14,204 nucleotides of DNA, taken from Patescibacteria group bacterium UBA6023 (GTDB taxonomy: Bacteria; Patescibacteriota; Minisyncoccia; Phycocordibacterales; UBA6899). The notes beneath the pieces were generated by a model. It had not been told where the DNA came from. It did no database searches and worked only from the letters and a program-made list of their open reading frames with translations. Numbering within the stretch: position 1 is the first letter of the stretch; every line of letters begins with the position of its first letter. The stretch covers positions 796-14,999 of the forward strand of contig DIZR01000092.1 of NCBI GenBank assembly GCA_002429425.1. Direction: 5' to 3'. Positions 636-14,035 of this stretch are shown one piece after another. The translations under genes were made by a program, and so were the position numbers.

Positions 636-1223
636 CTAGGAGGGAGATGATGTCGCCATATCAAGATACTGATCAGGTATTAATACATCTCCCCACGTTG
701 TAGGCTCTGCGGGCATTGATTCCCCCACAAGAATGACGGTAGCATTTATTCGTACCCGAGTGCCGATATCCGCAACAGAACCCTGTGGTGGTACATCCCT
801 CATAAAAGGTATTTTTTGCAACAATAGTTTATTACCCTCATTATCTACCAAGATTATCTCAACGTTTTTATTACACAATAATTGCAGTGTCGGCTCATTA
901 ACCTCAAACACATCACCCACACCAGCGAGAGAGGCCGGTATCTTCTTCGCTTCTAATCGCTCTTTGATATCATGGAGCACGGTAACAATAACCGGTTGCC
1001 ACGGCTCACAATTATCCTCCGGTCCACCAAAATATTTTTCGCTCACTACTGTTACGAAGGGTCCCATTTTAAAATCTTGAGTAATACTTCTGTCAAAACC
1101 GGAGCCTTCCCTCGATACTCCCGTCTCTCGGGTTGGTTCTTTAATTTCATGATAGGAAAAAGCGCTCATCATAATGAGTAAGATTACTATCAACACTAGG
1201 GCTATTTTCTCGTATGTACTCAT
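636..1223 (-). CDS. Membrane-anchored extracytoplasmic protein of unknown function, last gene of the flavin operon
   Basis: I do not recognise this 195-residue protein. Residues 6-23 form one hydrophobic N-terminal anchor with no lipobox cysteine, so most of the chain should lie outside the membrane. The outer part has only two cysteines (Cys72, Cys117), which could form a disulfide, and a beta-rich stretch from about 120 to 170 (EIILVDNEG, RVRINATVILVG). It starts 15 nt after the preceding small gene ends and no terminator lies between, so it is probably cotranscribed with the flavin genes. A role as partner or acceptor of the flavoprotein is inferred from position only. No Shine-Dalgarno precedes the ATG. 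Confidence 0.7.
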   Translation of the reverse strand: MSTYEKIALVLIVILLIMMSAFSYHEIKEPTRETGVSREGSGFDRSITQDFKMGPFVTVVSEKYFGGPEDNCEPWQPVIVTVLHDIKERLEAKKIPASLAGVGDVFEVNEPTLQLLCNKNVEIILVDNEGNKLLLQKIPFMRDVPPQGSVADIGTRVRINATVILVGESMPAEPTTWGDVLIPDQYLDMATSSPS

Positions 1224-1238
1224 ATTACTATTTTACCA

Positions 1239-1538
1239 TTAATCATCGCTTTCTCCCTCATAAGAGCGAATTCGGATGGAGTGATGTGCTGGAGAAGTTG
1301 CTTTCAACTTTTGCGTAGTCACGGGAATTATTATTTGAGTTTCCGATGGAAGATGGACAGAGGGGGAAACAGCACCGGATGGGATGTGCTGCGCTGTGGT
1401 TGTGGAAATATCCGAAACGGATTGATAGGTAAGTTTTGAATCATGAATTTTGGAAAGCCATGAAGAACTCACCACGAGTCCGAGCAAGAGTCCCAGGCTC
1501 ATGATAAATATTTTGTTTTCCTGTAAAAATTCATTCAT
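1239..1538 (-). CDS. Small single-pass membrane protein of unknown function in the flavin operon
   Basis: The 99-residue product is unrecognised. Residues 10-28 (FIMSLGLLLGLVVSSSWL) form one membrane segment. The rest is a low-complexity Ser/Thr/Pro tail ending in an acidic run (EGESDD). It begins 3 nt after the stop of the reductase fusion and ends 15 nt before the next gene, which argues for a real gene in the same transcript. It may be a small accessory subunit or a scaffold; the sequence shows no cofactor motif. Confidence 0.6.
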   Translation of the reverse strand: MNEFLQENKIFIMSLGLLLGLVVSSSWLSKIHDSKLTYQSVSDISTTTAQHIPSGAVSPSVHLPSETQIIIPVTTQKLKATSPAHHSIRIRSYEGESDD

Positions 1539-1541
1539 AAA

Positions 1542-3059
1542 TTATGTAAATCCCGGAAAGAAGTCACTCTTAATTTTAAAACGCGACACACCCATACTGA
1601 TTAAGGTTTTTTTGAATGACTCTACCATTCCATGCGGTCCTGATATGTAGAATATGCGCTCACGATAATCCGGAACTTCTCTCGCAATAAGTTCCGCATC
1701 AATCGGAGCACTAATCATCCCCGGTACTGGTGTCTTTTCTGCACTTAAGGAGTAGACTGTTTTAATTCCAAGCTCCAATTCTGCGCGATCAAAAATATCT
1801 TTGTATGCGATATCCGCCACTGTTTTATTTGCATACAACATAATGATAGATCGAGGTTCTTTTATATCAAGCAAGTAGTGGATCATGCTCCGAAATGGTG
1901 TCACACCAATTCCTCCAGCAATAAAAACCAATTTTTTCTCTTTATTTTTTGGCAATACAAAACCACCAGCGAGTTGAGAGACGGATATCGTATTTCCAAC
2001 ACGCATCGCGGCAAGTGCCCGTTTAAATGTGCTGGGGGGCTCATAAAATTTCACTCCAAGGCGCACCTCGGGTTCAGCGGGAGATGACGCGATGGTAAAA
2101 TAACGACGATTACCACGATCATCGGGATAATGGTGCGGAAGTGTCCACTCAACATATTGCCCGGGTCGAAATGAGAATGGACGGTCTGACTTGAACACAA
2201 AATCATACGCATCATTCGCGGCTTTTTCAATGCGCGCGAGCGTAAGCATATATCGCCCCTTGGGACTGACCAGATAAGAAAAAACATTTCCGACAAGTAA
2301 TGCGAGCTCCGGAGTCATATAAAAAGTTCCAATATGAATATTTGGTGCAAAGAGGAAACCAACGAGCGCTCCATAGAGCACCCGAAGTGTCATACCTGGT
2401 GGAGTTGTCAGGGGCTCAGTCAACATTACAAACATGAGGAAGAAAAACGACGAGTGGAGGAGTGTTTGCACAACCGGTGTTCCATAGTTACTCGATGAAG
2501 AAGTGAGAATAATGGTCACCAGTGACACAATCGTAAAACTTATAATAAGGTCAAACCGCCGTATTTTCCGCACCACCAACAAGCCACCAACAAGCACAAA
2601 TGGGAGTAGCGCAAGATTGCCTCCGACCCACCAAGTTGCAGATTGATTAATGAGGAGCGCAGTGAGCGCGACCGCAAATGCTGCTGGATTAAATATATGT
2701 TTTTTTCCGATAGCGAACAAATATTTCGATGCCATTGCCCACACAGACGCAAAGATCAAAAAACCGACTCCATTGTGGTTTGTGGCAGTAACGGGGGTGA
2801 TAATGAGCGCAAGGATCAATGCGGTGATATACACTGATTCAATGTTCGTCGCAGCTTGAAAAATGCGTGCAAAAATCCAATTAGTGATAAAACATACGGC
2901 AAGAATCAGCAATACTGAGAATGCCATTGCAGTCGGATCATAAGGTAAAACACCAAAGAAACCAAAAACGAAAGCTGCAATAAAAAGAACAACTAAGTAA
3001 TAAAGTACCAACCGATACATCGTAATGCGATTCAAAATATTATCAATGTAGCTGATCAT
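1542..3059 (-). CDS. RnfD/NqrB-like membrane domain fused to an FAD/NAD(P)H oxidoreductase domain
   Basis: The likely role is to take electrons from cytosolic NAD(P)H through FAD and pass them across the membrane. Residues 1 to about 265 are multi-pass and RnfD/NqrB-like, with FNPAAFAVAL (123-132) and MLTEPLTTPPG (212-222) matching the conserved family loops. Residues 270-505 are a ferredoxin-reductase-type module: FRPGQY (297-302), the FAD motif RYFTIAS (319-325), the nucleotide-binding GGIGVTPFRSM (382-392), YISGPHGMV (471-479) and a C-terminal DFFPGF. No 2Fe-2S ferredoxin domain or cysteine cluster is present. Compared with RnfD, the long loop carrying the covalent-FMN threonine is almost absent; only QSAT (139-142) remains there. 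The ATG overlaps the ApbE stop by 4 nt (ATGA), suggesting coupled translation. Confidence 0.85.
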   Translation of the reverse strand: MISYIDNILNRITMYRLVLYYLVVLFIAAFVFGFFGVLPYDPTAMAFSVLLILAVCFITNWIFARIFQAATNIESVYITALILALIITPVTATNHNGVGFLIFASVWAMASKYLFAIGKKHIFNPAAFAVALTALLINQSATWWVGGNLALLPFVLVGGLLVVRKIRRFDLIISFTIVSLVTIILTSSSSNYGTPVVQTLLHSSFFFLMFVMLTEPLTTPPGMTLRVLYGALVGFLFAPNIHIGTFYMTPELALLVGNVFSYLVSPKGRYMLTLARIEKAANDAYDFVFKSDRPFSFRPGQYVEWTLPHHYPDDRGNRRYFTIASSPAEPEVRLGVKFYEPPSTFKRALAAMRVGNTISVSQLAGGFVLPKNKEKKLVFIAGGIGVTPFRSMIHYLLDIKEPRSIIMLYANKTVADIAYKDIFDRAELELGIKTVYSLSAEKTPVPGMISAPIDAELIAREVPDYRERIFYISGPHGMVESFKKTLISMGVSRFKIKSDFFPGFT

Positions 3060-3793
3060 ATAATAAGTTGTGAAAATCCGCTGGTCATGGTCGCCACCGC
3101 ATTTGCATTAATCTGATAACCCTCGAATCCGGGGAGTTGCTCGATGAATAAGATGCCATTTTCCCCCATTGCAAATGCTGCAGTCGCAAAACGATCCGCC
3201 TCATAGACATCAGGACCAATGACGGTGATACTCACGATGTCTTCGATTGCCCTCTCTGGTTTATGAGGATCGTAGATATGTTGACCCCGAGCCGCGGTAC
3301 CGGAAGTTGCAACTCCACGACCTTGAGGACAGATAGCCTTTATAATCTCTTTCGAATCGAACGGATTGCGAATACCGATAGTCCACGCGCGACCCTCTGC
3401 GTCGATGCCCTTGGACTGTATATCACCCCCCACATCAATAAAATAATTTTCATAGCCCATGCGCTCAACAAGTGTCGCAGCATTCCATATTGCCCAACCC
3501 TTTACGATGCCAGACGGATCGATTACACCATCGGGCCGAATGATAGAAAAATAACCATTTGTATCTTTTTCCGTACGTTCCGCAAGATTAAAAATCTCCT
3601 TCATCTCTTCGCTATATTCATTTTTTTTGAGCTCACCACGATTAATCTTCATGATCTCGCTCTGTGGTTTGTAAGTACTAAAACGTGCATCGATCGCAGT
3701 AAAGTACTCGAATACCGCATCAAGCGCTGCGTCCGTGCCACTAACGATTTCTATGGTGACTGGCATACCCATGATATCTCGAAGTTTACGCAT
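3056..3793 (-). CDS. apbE: FAD:protein FMN transferase (ApbE family)
   Basis: It transfers FMN from FAD to a Ser/Thr of a target protein, here presumably the FMN-binding-domain protein encoded just upstream. The 245 residues contain DPSGIVKGWA (92-101), VGGD (121-124), ATSG (162-165), HIYDP (172-176) and EADRFATAAF (198-207) with probable Mg-binding Asp200 and Thr204. The open frame extends to 3964, but its first 57 codons would overlap the neighbouring gene and look non-natural. ATG 3793 starts 1 nt after that gene's stop and gives the usual ApbE beginning (MRKLRDIMGMPVTIEI). With this start there is no signal peptide or lipobox, unlike many exported ApbE enzymes. Confidence 0.9.
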   Translation of the reverse strand: MRKLRDIMGMPVTIEIVSGTDAALDAVFEYFTAIDARFSTYKPQSEIMKINRGELKKNEYSEEMKEIFNLAERTEKDTNGYFSIIRPDGVIDPSGIVKGWAIWNAATLVERMGYENYFIDVGGDIQSKGIDAEGRAWTIGIRNPFDSKEIIKAICPQGRGVATSGTAARGQHIYDPHKPERAIEDIVSITVIGPDVYEADRFATAAFAMGENGILFIEQLPGFEGYQINANAVATMTSGFSQLII

Positions 3794-3794
3794 A

Positions 3795-4406
3795 TTATGA
3801 ATTCTTGGCTTGCGCAAGCGCATTACCAAGCGACTGAATGAATGCGGGACTGGTCTCAGACGCCCCCGAAACTCCGCTGACATCGGCGCTTTGTGCCTGA
3901 ATAGCTTCGCTTTTGAGTATCGGCATCGCTTGATCATTGATATACCGCGAAGTACTACGATCATTTGGATACTGTAAAAAATCTACTGAAGCAAGTCTCC
4001 CACCTAGAATGACTGCCTGTACCTGGACCATGCCATAGTACGCATCTTCGACACTGCCAGTGTAGGTACCATCAACGTATTGACCCTTTGGTTTTGGAGG
4101 AATAATCGGTGCGGGTGGCAATACTGGCACAACTTTTGGCTTTGGCTTTGGTTTTGACACAGGTGGCGGTGTCACCACAGGAGTGATCTTGGTAACCGCA
4201 ACGATTGGTTGTGTGGGGACAATTTGCACCTCAGGAGTCGGCAACGTTACCTTTATTGATTGAGGAGTCATCGCGGAGATCTGAGTATTTGACTGAGAAG
4301 TTACCAGAGTCGTAACAGCACTTGCCGAACTACCCCCAGTAGACTGATACACCACATAGCCCGCAGAGGTGGCAAAAACAAAGAATGATAGAAAAAATTT
4401 TTTCAT
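3795..4406 (-). CDS. Exported FMN-binding-domain protein (RnfG/NqrC C-terminal-like) on a proline-rich stalk
   Basis: It is the likely extracytoplasmic flavoprotein and electron carrier of this operon. Residues 4-20 form a signal or anchor helix, with a possible signal-peptidase site after ASA (28-30). Residues 57-108 are Pro/Lys/Val-rich (SKPKPKPK) and look like a wall-spanning stalk. Residues 109-200 match the FMN_bind domain: GQYVDGTYTG (108-117), a Tyr-Gly-Met beta strand, and VSGVSGASETSPAF (176-189). The usual flavinylation motif is SGAT; here it is SGAS, so the acceptor would be Ser183 if modified. It is the first gene of the operon and is followed 1 nt later by apbE, its probable modifying enzyme. 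Confidence 0.85.
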   Translation of the reverse strand: MKKFFLSFFVFATSAGYVVYQSTGGSSASAVTTLVTSQSNTQISAMTPQSIKVTLPTPEVQIVPTQPIVAVTKITPVVTPPPVSKPKPKPKVVPVLPPAPIIPPKPKGQYVDGTYTGSVEDAYYGMVQVQAVILGGRLASVDFLQYPNDRSTSRYINDQAMPILKSEAIQAQSADVSGVSGASETSPAFIQSLGNALAQAKNS

Positions 4407-4424: not shown

Positions 4425-4454
4425 AGTATACACTGTTAATACGAAGCTTGTCAG
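4425..4454 (-). promoter_or_regulatory. Promoter of the flavin electron-transfer operon
   Basis: The minus strand has CTGACA (4454-4449), an 18-nt spacer and TATACT (4430-4425). This is the best -35/-10 pair in the window. The start would fall near 4418, leaving a leader of about 12 nt before the ATG at 4406, with no clear ribosome-binding site. Confidence 0.6.
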
Positions 4455-9100: not shown

Positions 9101-11296
9101 ATGAGGTCACCGAACAAAAATAGCAGCATACCGTATCGTCCGTATATTGACGGCCTTCGTGGTGTCGCCGTTATTGCGGTTGTGCTCTATCATGCAAAAC
9201 TTTTTTTTACTACCGGAGGATTCATCGGTGTGGATATTTTTTTTGTTATATCTGGGTTTTTGATCACTCTGATCATTACCCGAGATCTCAACGCTGGGAC
9301 TTTTTCGCTACTGGGATTTTGGGAGCGTCGCGTGCGAAGAATTCTGCCGGCACATTTTGTAGTCATGCTTGCTTCGGTCATCGCAGCATATTTCTTGATC
9401 TTGTACCCGCCAGATTATGTATTTTTTGGAAAAACAGTTATTGCTCAAAGTATGTTCGTGTCGAATGCTTTGTTTATGGTGACCGATAACTACTTTGATG
9501 AACAGGCAAGATTCTCTCCGCTCCTCCACACATGGTCTCTTTCTGTTGAGGAGCAATTCTATATTCTTTTTCCATTCGTTGTCCTTTTCAGTACCTGGCT
9601 TTCACGACGGAGTCCCGCGTCGCGCATGAAACGATATTGGGCATGGGTAGATAAGGGAAAAAATAGCGCACTTATCCACGAGACCCACAGTGACAATGAC
9701 GTGGGGAGGAGAGGATATTATTCACTATTCACTTTCGTCATTCTGTTTGGGATTCTTTCTCTACTGCTTAACATATGGTTCGTTGATATTACCCCCAACA
9801 TTCCCTTTAAGCTCAAATTCGTTCCCGACCGGATCTTTGGTGGTGCCACATATGCCACAATAGGATTCTATCTTCTCTTCACTCGAATGTGGGAACTTGC
9901 ACTTGGTATTCTCGTCGCACTCTGTGCAGTAAGGATCCGCTCGCCATTTCTGGCTGACGTGGTGAGCATCTCGGGCATCATTGCAATCGGCACATCGATT
10001 TTTATTTTTACTGACAAAACATCCTTTCCTGGTATCGCCGCACTTCTCCCAACTATGGGCGCTGCAGCATTCATTGTGGCAAACGAAAGCCATCCGACAA
10101 GAACGGGGAGGATACTCTCAAGTACTCCACTAATATTTGTTGGAGTCATCTCTTACTCGCTCTACTTATGGCACTGGCCACTGTTTGTATTCGCAAAGCT
10201 CACATCATCCACCGCGCTCTCACCAATGACGATGGCTGGGCTCTGTGCTGTCGCAGTGATAATTTCATGGCTCTCCTACCGATTCATCGAGCTTCCATTT
10301 AGAAAAAAAACCTTTATTCATCAACGATATGTGATATTTCTTCTTGGCGCTACTGCGATGGGAATACTCGTCCTCTCCGGAATGCTTATAAAGCAGCATT
10401 CATCTCCGTTTTCAAATCGGATACCACTTCCTGCAAGGCATGTACTGGAGACATCTTCAGAAAACATTCCATGGGGAGGGATGTGTTTTCAAACTCCGGG
10501 CGATGAATCACGTTACGGCGGGATTTGCCGCATTGGTGACGCACAGAAGGGTACGAAGCAGAAATTTGTACTGTGGGGTGATAGTCACGCAGAAGCGATG
10601 GCTCCTCTCTTTAATACGCTCGGACGAGCATATGGAGTTCAAGGAGTAGTGTTTGATGGCGGAAACTGTATTCCGATTATTGGAGCACATCTAATACCTC
10701 CAGCTCCCGGCTGTGAGGAGGAGAAAGAATTTGCCATTCGCTACATCAGAGACAATGACATCACACAGGTGATTCTTATAGCCCGCTGGAGCTACTATCT
10801 AACTGGGGGTCAGAACGCAAAGCGCGCAGCACTTATCACTGATACAAATAATAGCTCAAATTTATCGATCGAAGCGGAAAAAGTCTTTGAGAGGAAGTTC
10901 GTGCCGATGGTACAGCAACTATCTCGCGAGGGTCGCTCCATATATATCGTTGAACAAGTTCCAGAGCAACCCCAATTTGATCTCCGTAATATTTTTTATC
11001 GCGCAGTACACACAAAAAAAGAAATACAATTCGAGAGCATATCGATGAAGGACAGTGAGGCAACTCAAGCACTTCCCAACTCGGTCATTGACTCGCTCGC
11101 ATCACTACCCAACGTTCACATCATCAATCCAGCAAAACTCCTTTGTAAGAGAGGTGGCCTTTGTGAACTTGAGGCTGGAGGAAAACTCATCTACAGAGAC
11201 GAGAGCCACTTGAGTACGATTGGCGCAATGAGTCTTGAGCCACTTTTTACTCCGTTTTTCAAAAGCATACAGAGCGCGAGCTCAAGTACGCAGTAA
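9101..11296 (+). CDS. Acyltransferase 3 (OafA/YrhL-type) with C-terminal SGNH domain
   Basis: This 731-residue protein should acylate an extracytoplasmic glycan. The membrane part has YIDGLRGVAVIAVVLYHA (15-32) with catalytic His31, GGFIGVDIFFVISGFLIT (39-56), RRVRRILPA (76-84) and HTWSLSVEEQFY (about 143-154). After the last helix comes an SGNH hydrolase-like domain with WGDSH (492-496; Ser495) and a C-terminal DESH (700-703). Two insertions are unusual: a polar loop at about 168-208, and about 20 residues before RMWELALG (262-269). A stop codon immediately precedes the ATG, so the start is fixed. The polysaccharide substrate is unknown. Confidence 0.93.
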   Translation: MRSPNKNSSIPYRPYIDGLRGVAVIAVVLYHAKLFFTTGGFIGVDIFFVISGFLITLIITRDLNAGTFSLLGFWERRVRRILPAHFVVMLASVIAAYFLILYPPDYVFFGKTVIAQSMFVSNALFMVTDNYFDEQARFSPLLHTWSLSVEEQFYILFPFVVLFSTWLSRRSPASRMKRYWAWVDKGKNSALIHETHSDNDVGRRGYYSLFTFVILFGILSLLLNIWFVDITPNIPFKLKFVPDRIFGGATYATIGFYLLFTRMWELALGILVALCAVRIRSPFLADVVSISGIIAIGTSIFIFTDKTSFPGIAALLPTMGAAAFIVANESHPTRTGRILSSTPLIFVGVISYSLYLWHWPLFVFAKLTSSTALSPMTMAGLCAVAVIISWLSYRFIELPFRKKTFIHQRYVIFLLGATAMGILVLSGMLIKQHSSPFSNRIPLPARHVLETSSENIPWGGMCFQTPGDESRYGGICRIGDAQKGTKQKFVLWGDSHAEAMAPLFNTLGRAYGVQGVVFDGGNCIPIIGAHLIPPAPGCEEEKEFAIRYIRDNDITQVILIARWSYYLTGGQNAKRAALITDTNNSSNLSIEAEKVFERKFVPMVQQLSREGRSIYIVEQVPEQPQFDLRNIFYRAVHTKKEIQFESISMKDSEATQALPNSVIDSLASLPNVHIINPAKLLCKRGGLCELEAGGKLIYRDESHLSTIGAMSLEPLFTPFFKSIQSASSSTQ

Positions 11297-11668: not shown

Positions 11669-11687
11669 TGGTATAATTTGGTATCAT
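11669..11687 (+). promoter_or_regulatory. Two tandem extended -10 boxes before the lipid kinase gene
   Basis: TGGTATAAT (11669-11677) and TGGTATCAT (11679-11687) sit in a 10-bp direct repeat (TTTGGTATAA/TTTGGTATCA). The first is a perfect extended -10 with a leader of about 9 nt. The second ends 5 nt before ATG 11693 and would give an essentially leaderless transcript. Confidence 0.6.
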
Positions 11688-11692
11688 TAAGC

Positions 11693-12589
11693 ATGCGAAG
11701 TATAGCTATTATTTTCAATCAGCGGTCGGGTATTCTCAGTCGACTGGAAGAGTTGCAAAAAAATTGTATTGAATTATCTAACGAGTTATATCACATAGAA
11801 ATATATGAAGTACAAGAAGGCGATAATATCCCTGAGATAGCAAAACATTATATCGCAAGAAAATTTGATACTATCGCCGCAGCAGGCGGAGATGGCACAG
11901 TAAATGCAGTTGGCTGTGCACTTATTAATACCCAGTGTCGCTTGGGGATCTTACCACTCGGAACCTTTAACCATCTCGCAAAAGATCTTGGCATTTCTAC
12001 CGACTTATCACTCGCGTTTCGCACATTAACGAATGAGGGAAAAGAAATCATTATTGATGCCGCAAGTTGCAATAAAACAATTTTTTTTAATAATTCGAGT
12101 CTTGGAATTTATCCAAAGGTCGTACACCTTCGCGAAAAGTATCAATCATGGGGAAAATTAAAATGGACTGCTTTTTTCTTCGCTGTAATCGAAGTGATAA
12201 CACGACTCCCAAACATATTCATTTCTTTTGAAGCGGGTGGCCGAAAAATTTCTCGCCGGACACCTTTTCTTTTTGTCGGCAACAACGCCTATAAATTAAC
12301 AGGCGTGGGACTTGGGACACGCTCGTCACTTTCAAGCGGCAATTTATCCGTATGGCTCATTCACTCAACTTCATTTGGGGGAATGCTCGGTCTTTTAAGG
12401 ATCATGTTGAGCGTTATAGTGAAAGAAGACAGAGAGCTCGATACATTCTATCCGCAAGAAGTTATCATTGAGACTGTCCCCTCTCGACTTTCCGTTTCGT
12501 ATGACGGCGAAGTGTTGGAAGCTGACAGTCCATTTCATTACAAGATTCTGCCACAGTGTTTGCGGGTTATTGTTCCCGAAAAAATATGA
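11693..12589 (+). CDS. Diacylglycerol kinase-like lipid kinase (DAGK_cat family)
   Basis: It probably phosphorylates diacylglycerol or a related lipid with ATP at the inner membrane face. The 298 residues have SIAIIFNQRSG (3-13), the nucleotide-binding AAAGGDGTVNAVG (62-74), LGILPLGTFNHLAKDLG (84-100), a FFNNSSLGIYPKVV segment and a C-terminal SYDGEVLEADSPF strand, all in family order. An in-frame TTG at 11678 would add five residues but lies inside the promoter region, so I use ATG 11693. The stop overlaps the next ATG (ATGA), so the phosphoesterase is translationally coupled. Lipid specificity (diacylglycerol versus sphingoid or isoprenoid) is not visible. Confidence 0.88.
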   Translation: MRSIAIIFNQRSGILSRLEELQKNCIELSNELYHIEIYEVQEGDNIPEIAKHYIARKFDTIAAAGGDGTVNAVGCALINTQCRLGILPLGTFNHLAKDLGISTDLSLAFRTLTNEGKEIIIDAASCNKTIFFNNSSLGIYPKVVHLREKYQSWGKLKWTAFFFAVIEVITRLPNIFISFEAGGRKISRRTPFLFVGNNAYKLTGVGLGTRSSLSSGNLSVWLIHSTSFGGMLGLLRIMLSVIVKEDRELDTFYPQEVIIETVPSRLSVSYDGEVLEADSPFHYKILPQCLRVIVPEKI

Positions 12590-13407
12590 AGAAGATCATT
12601 CATATATCAGATCTCCACTTTAACCGCGTCGACCAGTCGCGGGTAGAGGCGCTCCATCTGCTCATTCGGCAAATTACCCCAAACGTGGTTGTTGTATCAG
12701 GCGACCTTACGCAGCGCGCAAAGAAAGAGGAGTTTATTGCCGCAAAAGGTTTTTTGGATGGCCTAGAACTACCTATGCTCGTAGTCCCAGGGAATCATGA
12801 TATTCCACTCTATAATCTTATTGAGCGATTTTATTCTCCACTAAAGCGCTACACAAAATTCATCACCAGCGATCTTGTTCCGTTCTATGCCGATAACGAG
12901 ATTGCGATCATAGGGTTGGTCTCTGCGCGAAAAGGAAAAATATTGTCAGGTTCAATAAGCGAACGACAGCTTGAGCGTGCAGAAACACTGCTCGGAAAAC
13001 TTGATGAAAAGATCATCAAGATTGTTGTGACACATCATCCTTTTGATATACCGCAAGACACGACTCACACGCATGCACAGGTGATCGCCCACTCAACAAG
13101 CGCAATGATGCGTTTGTCAAAAATTGGGATCGATTTGTTTTTGTCGGGGCATCTCCATGTTTTCCATGCAGGCGATACGACAACGCGCTATGTGATAAAC
13201 GGCTACAGCGGCCTCATCATTCATGCGGGTACTGCATTTTCAACACGAGTGCGAAGTGGCCCTGTTTCATTTAATCTCATCACTGTCGATGCTGAACATA
13301 TCATTGTCGAAAATTATGCCGGTAATACTGGTGATGCTGGGTATTCGATTGCTTCATTAACAAAGTTTACGCGAGGTAAAGACGGGTGGAAGATTGTTGC
13401 CTCATAG
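12586..13407 (+). CDS. Calcineurin-like metallophosphoesterase (CpdA/YfcE-like)
   Basis: The 273-residue enzyme carries the five metal-binding blocks: IIHISDLHF (4-12; Asp9, His11), VVSGDLTQ (36-43; Asp40), VVPGNHDIP (66-74; Asn70, His71), VVTHHPFD (147-154) and SGHLHVFHAG (187-196). The spacing is that of class III cyclic-nucleotide phosphodiesterase and UDP-sugar pyrophosphatase relatives. It has no signal peptide, so it should act in the cytosol on a phosphodiester, nucleotide or lipid-linked pyrophosphate. It shares a 4-nt ATGA overlap with the lipid kinase, pointing to related substrates. Its last 6 bases overlap the convergent PAP2 gene. Confidence 0.9.
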   Translation: MKKIIHISDLHFNRVDQSRVEALHLLIRQITPNVVVVSGDLTQRAKKEEFIAAKGFLDGLELPMLVVPGNHDIPLYNLIERFYSPLKRYTKFITSDLVPFYADNEIAIIGLVSARKGKILSGSISERQLERAETLLGKLDEKIIKIVVTHHPFDIPQDTTHTHAQVIAHSTSAMMRLSKIGIDLFLSGHLHVFHAGDTTTRYVINGYSGLIIHAGTAFSTRVRSGPVSFNLITVDAEHIIVENYAGNTGDAGYSIASLTKFTRGKDGWKIVAS

Positions 13408-13977
13408 ACGATATGTTTCTCCGTTTCTCCCACTGATCATCTTCATGAATGGTGGTCGTAAATAGCGAAATACAACATATGCAGTAATAGAACCGACAAT
13501 AATCCCCCCAAGAATATCCGACGGATAATGGATGCCTGCGGCCACACGCCCGATCGACATGATGATCACGAGAATGAAGAACCATATTCCCCACTTTTTG
13601 TTGTACTGATAGATTGCGCAAGCAAATGCAAAAAAGAACGTTGCATGCACAGAGGGAAAGGAGTACGAATTTTCAGAAAGTAGTTGATGGAGATGATGCG
13701 TGAGAAACGGTCGCGGACGATGGTAAAAATAACGAACAACCTCCATCACACCATAACGGGCAAAGAAACTTGAAAAGAAAACCACACTTCCAATGACTAA
13801 TTTTTCCCGAAATGGACAGGTGGTTCGCCAAAGGAGCACAGCAAATGCGACCACAAGAATAATGGGTAAGAAATCAGCAAGAAAAACGATCCAGAAGTCG
13901 GCCGTGGAAGATTGACCAGCTAGGTTGTTAAGCAGAAACAGTGTCTTTACATCAAGGCTGGAAAGAAATTGAAGCAT
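13402..13977 (-). CDS. PAP2-superfamily membrane phosphatase, undecaprenyl-diphosphate phosphatase-like
   Basis: The 191-residue product probably dephosphorylates a lipid (di)phosphate at the outer membrane face, as BcrC and PgpB do. The three signature blocks are RYFYHRPRP (82-90), FPSVHATF (107-114) and GRVAAGIHYPSD (143-154; Arg144, His150, Asp154). Two departures from the KX6RP-PSGH-SRX5HX3D consensus are seen: Arg82 for Lys and Val110 for Gly; the catalytic histidines remain. Five or six helices are visible. The frame reaches ATG 14022, but that ATG lies in a hairpin loop, while ATG 13977 follows a perfect TATAAT by 6 nt and starts at a typical family N-terminus. I use 13977. Confidence 0.88.
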   Translation of the reverse strand: MLQFLSSLDVKTLFLLNNLAGQSSTADFWIVFLADFLPIILVVAFAVLLWRTTCPFREKLVIGSVVFFSSFFARYGVMEVVRYFYHRPRPFLTHHLHQLLSENSYSFPSVHATFFFAFACAIYQYNKKWGIWFFILVIIMSIGRVAAGIHYPSDILGGIIVGSITAYVVFRYLRPPFMKMISGRNGETYRL

Positions 13978-13983
13978 TGATAC

Positions 13984-13989
13984 ATTATA
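13984..13989 (-). promoter_or_regulatory. -10 box of the PAP2 gene, leaderless type
   Basis: TATAAT on the minus strand, then GTATCA, then ATG at 13977. The predicted start coincides with the A of the ATG. The same GTATCA spacer text occurs at the TraB-like gene. Confidence 0.65.
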
Positions 13990-14006
13990 GGACAAAAAGT
14001 TCAAAC

Positions 14007-14035
14007 CAAAAAATCCCTTCATTCGAGATTTTTTG
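14007..14035 (-). terminator. Probable terminator between repeat D and the PAP2 promoter
   Basis: CAAAAAATC (14007-14015) and GATTTTTTG (14027-14035), a perfect 9-bp stem with an 11-nt loop. It would end transcripts of a minus-strand gene lying beyond 14204. Its place between a repeat copy and a -10 box repeats the arrangement at 5220-5348 and 8341-8465. Confidence 0.5.

Follow-up and report, generated by a model that had tools for sequence, protein, structure and literature searches.

The window analysed here, a stretch of 14,204 nucleotides, belongs to a CPR genome of 890,675 bases that is 82% complete. Between positions 636 and 4406, its minus strand carries five genes separated by gaps of 1, -4, 3 and 15 nt, which bears out the compact layout described in the original prediction, the gap lengths presupposing that the second gene starts at position 3793. 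In order of transcription, the genes encode a protein with an FMN-binding (FMN_bind) domain (203 aa, 3795..4406), a short form of the FAD:protein FMN transferase ApbE (245 aa, 3056..3793), a fusion of an RnfD/NqrB-like membrane domain with an FNR domain (505 aa, 1542..3059) and two small proteins of 99 aa (1239..1538) and 195 aa (636..1223). Upstream of the FMN_bind gene, on the same strand, lies a sigma-70-like promoter match (4425..4454; CTGACA-18-TATACT), picked out by consensus scan only. Read from 4454 to 4425 it agrees with the consensus at 10 of 12 positions, and sites of this kind are not commoner than in shuffled sequence (14 found against 10.7 ± 3.3 expected).

Residues 1-264 of the fusion protein form the RnfD/NqrB-like membrane domain and residues 265-505 the FAD/NAD(P)H reductase domain. 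Both exceed their Pfam cut-offs (PF03116 at 36 bits and PF00175 at 45 bits), and the predicted fold of each half agrees with the domain assignment, that of the membrane half being RnfD-like. The fusion is the sole PF03116 match in the host genome, and its closest named relatives are found in the Kaiserbacteria, Adlerbacteria and Magasanikbacteria. The flavinylation motif [ST]GA[ST] is absent from the membrane half in all rows of the alignment (0/41). PF02508 (Rnf-Nqr) has no match in the host genome, at its 82% completeness; the same search matched 4 of 14 control genomes.

The FMN_bind protein begins with a hydrophobic anchor, MKKFFLSFFVFATSAGYVVYQ, which is followed by a stalk rich in proline and lysine and, at the C terminus, the FMN-binding domain. 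Its PF04205 score of 22.4 bits against a cut-off of 22 is borderline when taken alone, but FMN_bind proteins adjoining fusions in other genomes of the phylum reach 50.9 bits, and the protein is the sole PF04205 match in the host genome (82% complete). A flavinylation-type motif, SGASET, starts at residue 180 and is the candidate site of FMN attachment. The [ST]GA[ST] pattern is present in 45 of the 53 matches of a first FMN_bind profile, where SGAT is the commoner variant (38 against 6 with SGAS), so the window has the rarer, Ser form. Export of these proteins was judged by hydropathy. The window's own anchor is weak by this measure (1.28 over 19 residues, just under the 1.3 applied to relatives), whereas an N-terminal hydrophobic segment was found in 52 of 53 first-profile matches, a protein with a truncated FMN_bind (L019) being excluded, and in 17 of 17 matches of a second profile. 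A charge bias that would leave the N terminus inside and the C terminus outside is seen in 44 of the 53 but in only 10 of the 17; the two profiles share 29 of the 65 proteins matched, and their counts are not additive. In other CPR genomes the fusion is found together with a second, diverged type of FMN_bind that has an ApbE of its own, and the same holds for L065, a record labelled Pseudomonas sp. DR48 that looks actinobacterial. The FMN_bind copy on that record has a lipobox-like start, as seen by eye. The host genome also has a second-type FMN_bind/ApbE pair, on another contig (L057), with no fusion within the stretch read there.

The full-length fusion is present in 44 of 286 genomes (45 proteins) drawn evenly from the phylum, the host genome included, and at 1e-30 the fusion profile matches 84 of the 286. 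In a larger, overlapping draw of 379 genomes, in which all 44 of the earlier fusion genomes recur, there were 61 matches at 1e-100 and 60 genomes with the full-length fusion. The fusion is thus encoded by about 15% of the genomes sampled from the phylum, the full-length counts excluding one genome with the fusion in two pieces, interrupted by a stop (G284), and matches to the FNR domain alone. A protein search scored 7,999 candidates, of which 7,984 matched at E <= 0.001; the best 120 of these were examined, and lower-scoring ones may have only the FNR domain in common. Within the 286-genome draw, ApbE is encoded by 31 of the 44 fusion genomes and by 29 of the 242 others, and FMN_bind by 29 of the 44 and by 11 of the 242. 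A set of 47 loci (L006-L052) was collected with short patterns from the window's own protein and is hence biased to close relatives; FMN_bind lies within 3 kb upstream of the fusion and on its strand in 44 of them, and ApbE within 3 kb in 31. The order FMN_bind-ApbE-fusion is kept in 29 of the 47, with L010 and L020 deviating in order or strand. This neighbourhood is not due to chance. The original prediction had proposed a search of other genomes for the gene order and allowed that it might be found nowhere else; for the trio, the order recurs and that outcome is excluded.

The trio is also found outside the CPR. Plasmid pB2-1-1 of Mesorhizobium sp. B2-1-1 carries FMN_bind, ApbE and fusion genes in the window's order, and its fusion is 56% identical to that of the window. 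In a tree of 84 rows, the plasmid fusion is nested in a 21-row clade of otherwise CPR-type sequences (support 96/98); the bootstrap of this tree had not fully settled and the plasmid row has an unusual composition. The plain reading of the tree is that the trio would have moved from the CPR to a rhizobial plasmid.

The two small genes are real additions to the trio, as the original prediction had it, but they are limited to a clade. Relatives of the 195-aa protein lie downstream of the fusion in 4 of the 47 loci (L007, L008, L011 and L013) and relatives of the 99-aa protein directly after it in 2 (L006 and L008), counts that are limited by the early downstream end of some loci; a further relative of the 99-aa protein follows a contig-edge piece of the fusion (L053). 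Neither protein matches a Pfam family at E 0.1, and the one NCBIfam line obtained for the pair, at 13 bits, is far below its cut-off of 279. Hydropathy shows a hydrophobic segment at the N terminus of both. The 195-aa protein has 47 homologues, its own sequence included, and two Cys residues (72 and 117) that are invariant in an alignment of 45 rows; comparison of its model (pLDDT 87.7) with known folds gave no confident match. From their position and anchors, the two proteins are probably clade-specific accessories on the outer face of the membrane.

Taken together, the domain content, predicted fold and conserved gene neighbourhood fit a route by which electrons would leave the cell. Cytosolic NAD(P)H would be oxidized by the FNR half of the fusion, using FAD. 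By way of a non-covalent flavin in the RnfD/NqrB-like membrane half, the electrons would then reach the stalked, exported FMN_bind protein and its covalently bound FMN, and from there an acceptor at the cell surface. Attachment of this FMN to the FMN_bind protein would be the task of ApbE. This is in substance the mechanism of the original prediction, which is partly supported; its claim to novelty fails, the same mechanism having already been proposed in print. An NQR/RNF-like system, reported mainly from Actinobacteria and CPR, was named in 2021 (Meheust et al., eLife, PMC8238504). Huang et al. (2024, mSystems, PMC11334425) have since, in the portions of the text examined, presented a multimer model and noted the lost membrane flavinylation site, and a unidirectional flow from NAD(P)H to the outside is proposed in the examined text of both papers. 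The outward redox line is therefore not unexpected, nor is the combination of genes newly inferred, as the original prediction had held. We regard it as likely that the cluster is an NQR/RNF-like flavinylation system that passes cytosolic NAD(P)H electrons to the exported FMN_bind protein. Weighing against this are the weak anchor and the Ser motif of the window's FMN_bind protein, the uneven charge bias of its relatives, and the fusions of the first draw with neither FMN_bind nor ApbE nearby (13 of 45).

ApbE is typically an exported lipoprotein, and the usual view is that a surface protein acquires a covalent flavin only with an ApbE outside the membrane and exported FAD. The clusters described here set a compartment puzzle in that their ApbE looks cytosolic. 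The window's ApbE, for which PF02424 scores 132 bits, above the curated cut-off, and which also aligns with its family (alignment A2), begins MRKLRDIMGMP, seven residues ahead of MGMP, and no signal peptide is seen. A longer open reading frame (3056-3964) would start within the FMN_bind gene, and relatives begin at the equivalent Met. A hydropathy scan covered 46 ApbE proteins encoded within 3 kb of a fusion, among them some remote ApbEs and those of L064 and L065, both plasmid loci. On a criterion of our own setting (15-residue hydropathy >= 1.8, sought between 60 residues ahead of the start of homology and 12 residues beyond it), 45 of the 46 show no export segment. The segment of the exception, L011 (2.01), precedes the conserved Met and falls where the frame overlaps the FMN_bind gene, and L087 is just short of the threshold (1.74); in 7 of the 46, an upstream in-frame stop leaves fewer than 15 scorable residues and thus no room for a signal. 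Such a lack does not exclude ApbE function, since cytosolic ApbEs are known: in the portions examined, a review names that of the Klebsiella fumarate reductase and those of two eukaryotes (PMC12052999).

Because the window's ApbE has no visible export signal, the simplest reading of the sequences is that flavinylation most likely takes place in the cytosol, before or during export, in which case no FAD exporter would be needed. A search of the host genome, at 82% completeness, turned up neither of the domains that make up the usual FAD synthase, which counts against cytosolic flavinylation; given that gap in an incomplete genome, the host may scavenge its cytosolic FAD. The 2021 survey, as far as its excerpts go, asked for a signal in one or more genes of a cluster (PMC8238504), so that clusters with an unexported ApbE could pass. 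Within the titles, opening lines of abstracts and excerpts of the open-access literature, a cytosolic ApbE paired with an exported FMN_bind protein in CPR was not found discussed.

The identity of the surface partner may vary. By PF04205 and alignment A2, 13 of the 45 fusions of the first draw have neither FMN_bind nor ApbE within 3 kb, and an FMN partner is thus not obligatory; one of the 13 (L073) does have the second FMN_bind type when its locus is read. Four others (L068, L069, L071 and L078) lie near a type-1-copper cupredoxin with the full His, Cys, His, Met set and, by eye, an N-terminal hydrophobic segment. All four cupredoxins are within 1.3 kb of the fusion, that of L068 at the full 1.3 kb with one gene between, and three are on the same strand; on the tree, the cupredoxin-paired fusions need at least three changes. 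Left out of the count were two loci with cupredoxin-like neighbours lacking the Cys ligand (L075 and L076), and one with both a cupredoxin and FMN_bind (L023) was counted with FMN_bind. A cupredoxin lies within 3 kb of 4 of the 45 fusions against 0.15 expected from cupredoxin counts (Poisson, 2e-5), and near 4 of the 13 partnerless fusions but none of the 32 others (Fisher, 0.005), both tests being post hoc in that the pattern was noticed in the same 13 loci and the cupredoxin profile (A6) was built from those four proteins and two others. Among 18 further fusions from 16 new genomes, 13 have FMN_bind, one has ApbE alone near a contig end and four have neither; none is near a cupredoxin. An exchange of FMN_bind for cupredoxin as a general rule is not upheld by this further sample and, with 0 of 18, the pairing is rare as well as noticed after the fact.

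The pairing was not found treated in titles, abstract openings and excerpts of the open-access literature, the nearest being a 2025 survey of denitrifying Patescibacteriota that infers a plastocyanin-like carrier feeding NirK (PMC12931201). In its excerpts, this survey leaves the protein that reduces the carrier unnamed and assumes that the electrons come from quinone. The copper form of the fusion is a candidate for that reductase and, if the pairing holds, could fill the place left open there. A joint proposal is that cytosolic ApbE would load FMN before or during export, with no FAD exporter, and that the fusion would be a general outward gate whose surface carrier is a flavoprotein or, convergently, a blue-copper protein; we put this forward tentatively and rather doubt that it holds in full. 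An exchange of flavin and copper partners, should it hold, would be a lead to the use that ultra-small bacteria make of electrons at the cell surface.

Other readings of the cluster differ in where they place the flavin or in its ancestry. Were the FMN_bind domain to stay in the cytosol beside ApbE, the system would be a flavin reductase of the inner face. That would suit the 45 of 46 ApbEs without an export segment and the mixed charge bias of the second profile (10/17), but not the hydrophobic N terminus ahead of the domain in nearly all matches (52/53 and 17/17), the N-in charge of 44 of 53, the Pro-rich stalk of the window's protein or the lipobox-like start seen by eye on L065; the published models, in the text examined, also put the domain outside (PMC8238504, PMC11334425), and we consider a cytosolic domain quite improbable. 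It is scarcely credible that the cluster is the remnant of a full Rnf/Nqr ion pump. The RnfD-like fold and an FMN domain of the RnfG/NqrC family would be expected of one, but the genome has no PF02508 match, the membrane half is without the flavinylation motif, and the full-length fusion recurs across the phylum, in about 15% of the genomes sampled.

Two further readings concern what an outward flow of electrons would serve. The fusion might be a general outward NAD(P)H reductase with an exchangeable partner, and its main task might be less respiration than protection of the envelope against oxidative or copper stress, with thiols, methionines or Cu maintained in the reduced state. The cupredoxins within 3 kb of 4 of 13 partnerless fusions and none of 32 others point this way, as do neighbours that on reading of their sequences look DsbA- and VKOR-like (L066 and L091), DsbB-like (L080), CsoR-, Cu P-type ATPase- and MsrA-like (L094) or CsoR-like (L090), an ECF-sigma-like gene upstream at some loci, one of them checked against Pfam, and the failure to find a COX1-type oxidase in the host genome. 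Against it are the 18 further fusions with no cupredoxin nearby, the want of such neighbours in the window and the post hoc reading of those neighbours, and we treat envelope protection as a serious possibility without favouring it. That the system serves to reduce extracellular ferric iron, whether in uptake or in extracellular electron transfer, seems to us unlikely. A VIT1 iron transporter occurs in six published clusters of the system (PMC8238504), a gene annotated as a VIT family protein adjoins the Mesorhizobium trio, and flavin-based iron reduction has been proposed for mine-drainage CPR (PMC12153355, in the part examined), but no iron transporter is recognized beside the window's cluster, and the same part of the mine-drainage study relies on Listeria-type EET genes and itself notes incomplete sets.

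Comparison with known systems returns us to the NQR/RNF-like reading. The window shares with the Rnf/Nqr pumps the RnfD/NqrB fold, an FMN_bind domain and an NqrF-like FAD/NAD domain; where the pumps have six subunits, however, the window has one fusion, no PF02508 (the A/E or D/E intramembrane subunits) was found in the host genome, and the membrane half is without an FMN site; the system is not predicted to pump. Listeria-type EET (Ndh2, EetA/B, FmnA/B and PplA) resembles it in that a surface flavoprotein, the product of an ApbE-type enzyme, receives its electrons from cytosolic NADH, but the Listeria ApbE (FmnB) works outside the cytosol and depends on FmnA/EetB to export FAD (PMC9973259, as excerpted), whereas the window's ApbE looks cytosolic and no Eet-like gene is recognized in the cluster. 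The plastocyanin-like carrier of the denitrifiers is an inferred cupredoxin, and a cupredoxin is close to four of the CPR fusions described here; the text examined names no RnfD, FMN or ApbE (PMC12931201), and the window's cluster is the flavin form. From the published NQR/RNF-like system, the window differs in its additional 99- and 195-aa proteins, found only in close relatives, in the Ser at its putative flavinylated residue, Thr being commoner, and in an ApbE without an export segment, a feature not discussed in the examined text of PMC8238504 and PMC11334425. It agrees with that system in joining an N-terminal NqrB/RnfD domain to a C-terminal PF00175 domain in one protein, in the clustering of this fusion with FMN_bind and ApbE, in an exported FMN_bind protein, predicted here from hydropathy, and in a membrane half without a flavinylation site, in the window as in the published cases. 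The cluster is a further case of the published NQR/RNF-like flavinylation system.

An FMN_bind-ApbE-fusion trio of the candidate phyla radiation (CPR) type lies on the Mesorhizobium sp. B2-1-1 plasmid pB2-1-1 (L064:6411-9512), near genes annotated as VIT family, cytochrome b, sensor kinase/response regulator and PepSY. Two further records carry doubtful labels. A 19-kb record filed as a Pseudomonas plasmid (L065, NZ_CP081947.1) encodes argS- and lysA-like genes of actinobacterial look, as judged by eye, and is probably a contaminant contig. Similarly, a CPR-type cluster on a contig labelled Paraglaciecola arctica (L011, QIJM01000443.1) clusters with Magasanikbacteria in the tree, and this contig was probably mis-binned.

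The genome to which the window belongs encodes a second FMN_bind-like protein, with a hydrophobic segment at its N terminus, followed by ApbE and a DUF475/TerC membrane protein (L057:5213-7728, plus strand, contig G000:C39). No signal peptide was seen in this ApbE, as for that of the window, and no fusion gene adjoins the pair. At 1e-30, the only match to the fusion profile in this genome besides the fusion itself is a 791-aa histidine kinase (L056:1099-3474, minus strand, contig G000:C59), which has as neighbours, judged by eye, a PAS-type sensor, a binding-protein-like gene and two response regulators. In the kinase, PAS domains, HisKA and HATPase come after an N-terminal FNR-like FAD/NAD(P)H domain (PF00175, 40 bits); the protein is perhaps redox-sensing.

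Outside the flavin cluster, the window encodes what is, from its predicted products, an envelope/lipid-type set: AT3-SGNH acyltransferase, diacylglycerol-kinase-like protein, metallophosphoesterase and PAP2 phosphatase (9101-11296 and 11678-13407, plus strand; 13402-14022, minus strand). FMN_bind is directly preceded in locus L030 (3240-4513) by an ECF-sigma-like gene and by the gene for a membrane protein whose family is unknown; L008, L017, L021, L032 and L038 are similarly arranged, and L030 is the one locus of these six in which the ECF-sigma-like gene was checked by Pfam. In several CPR loci, the FMN_bind system thus looks as if it were controlled by envelope stress.

Cupredoxins also occur near FNR-containing proteins other than the fusion (G105:C25, G247:C34 and G068:C49), as does ApbE (G145:C34, G081:C8 and G272:C6), and a second reductase family may therefore share the choice between a flavin and a copper partner.
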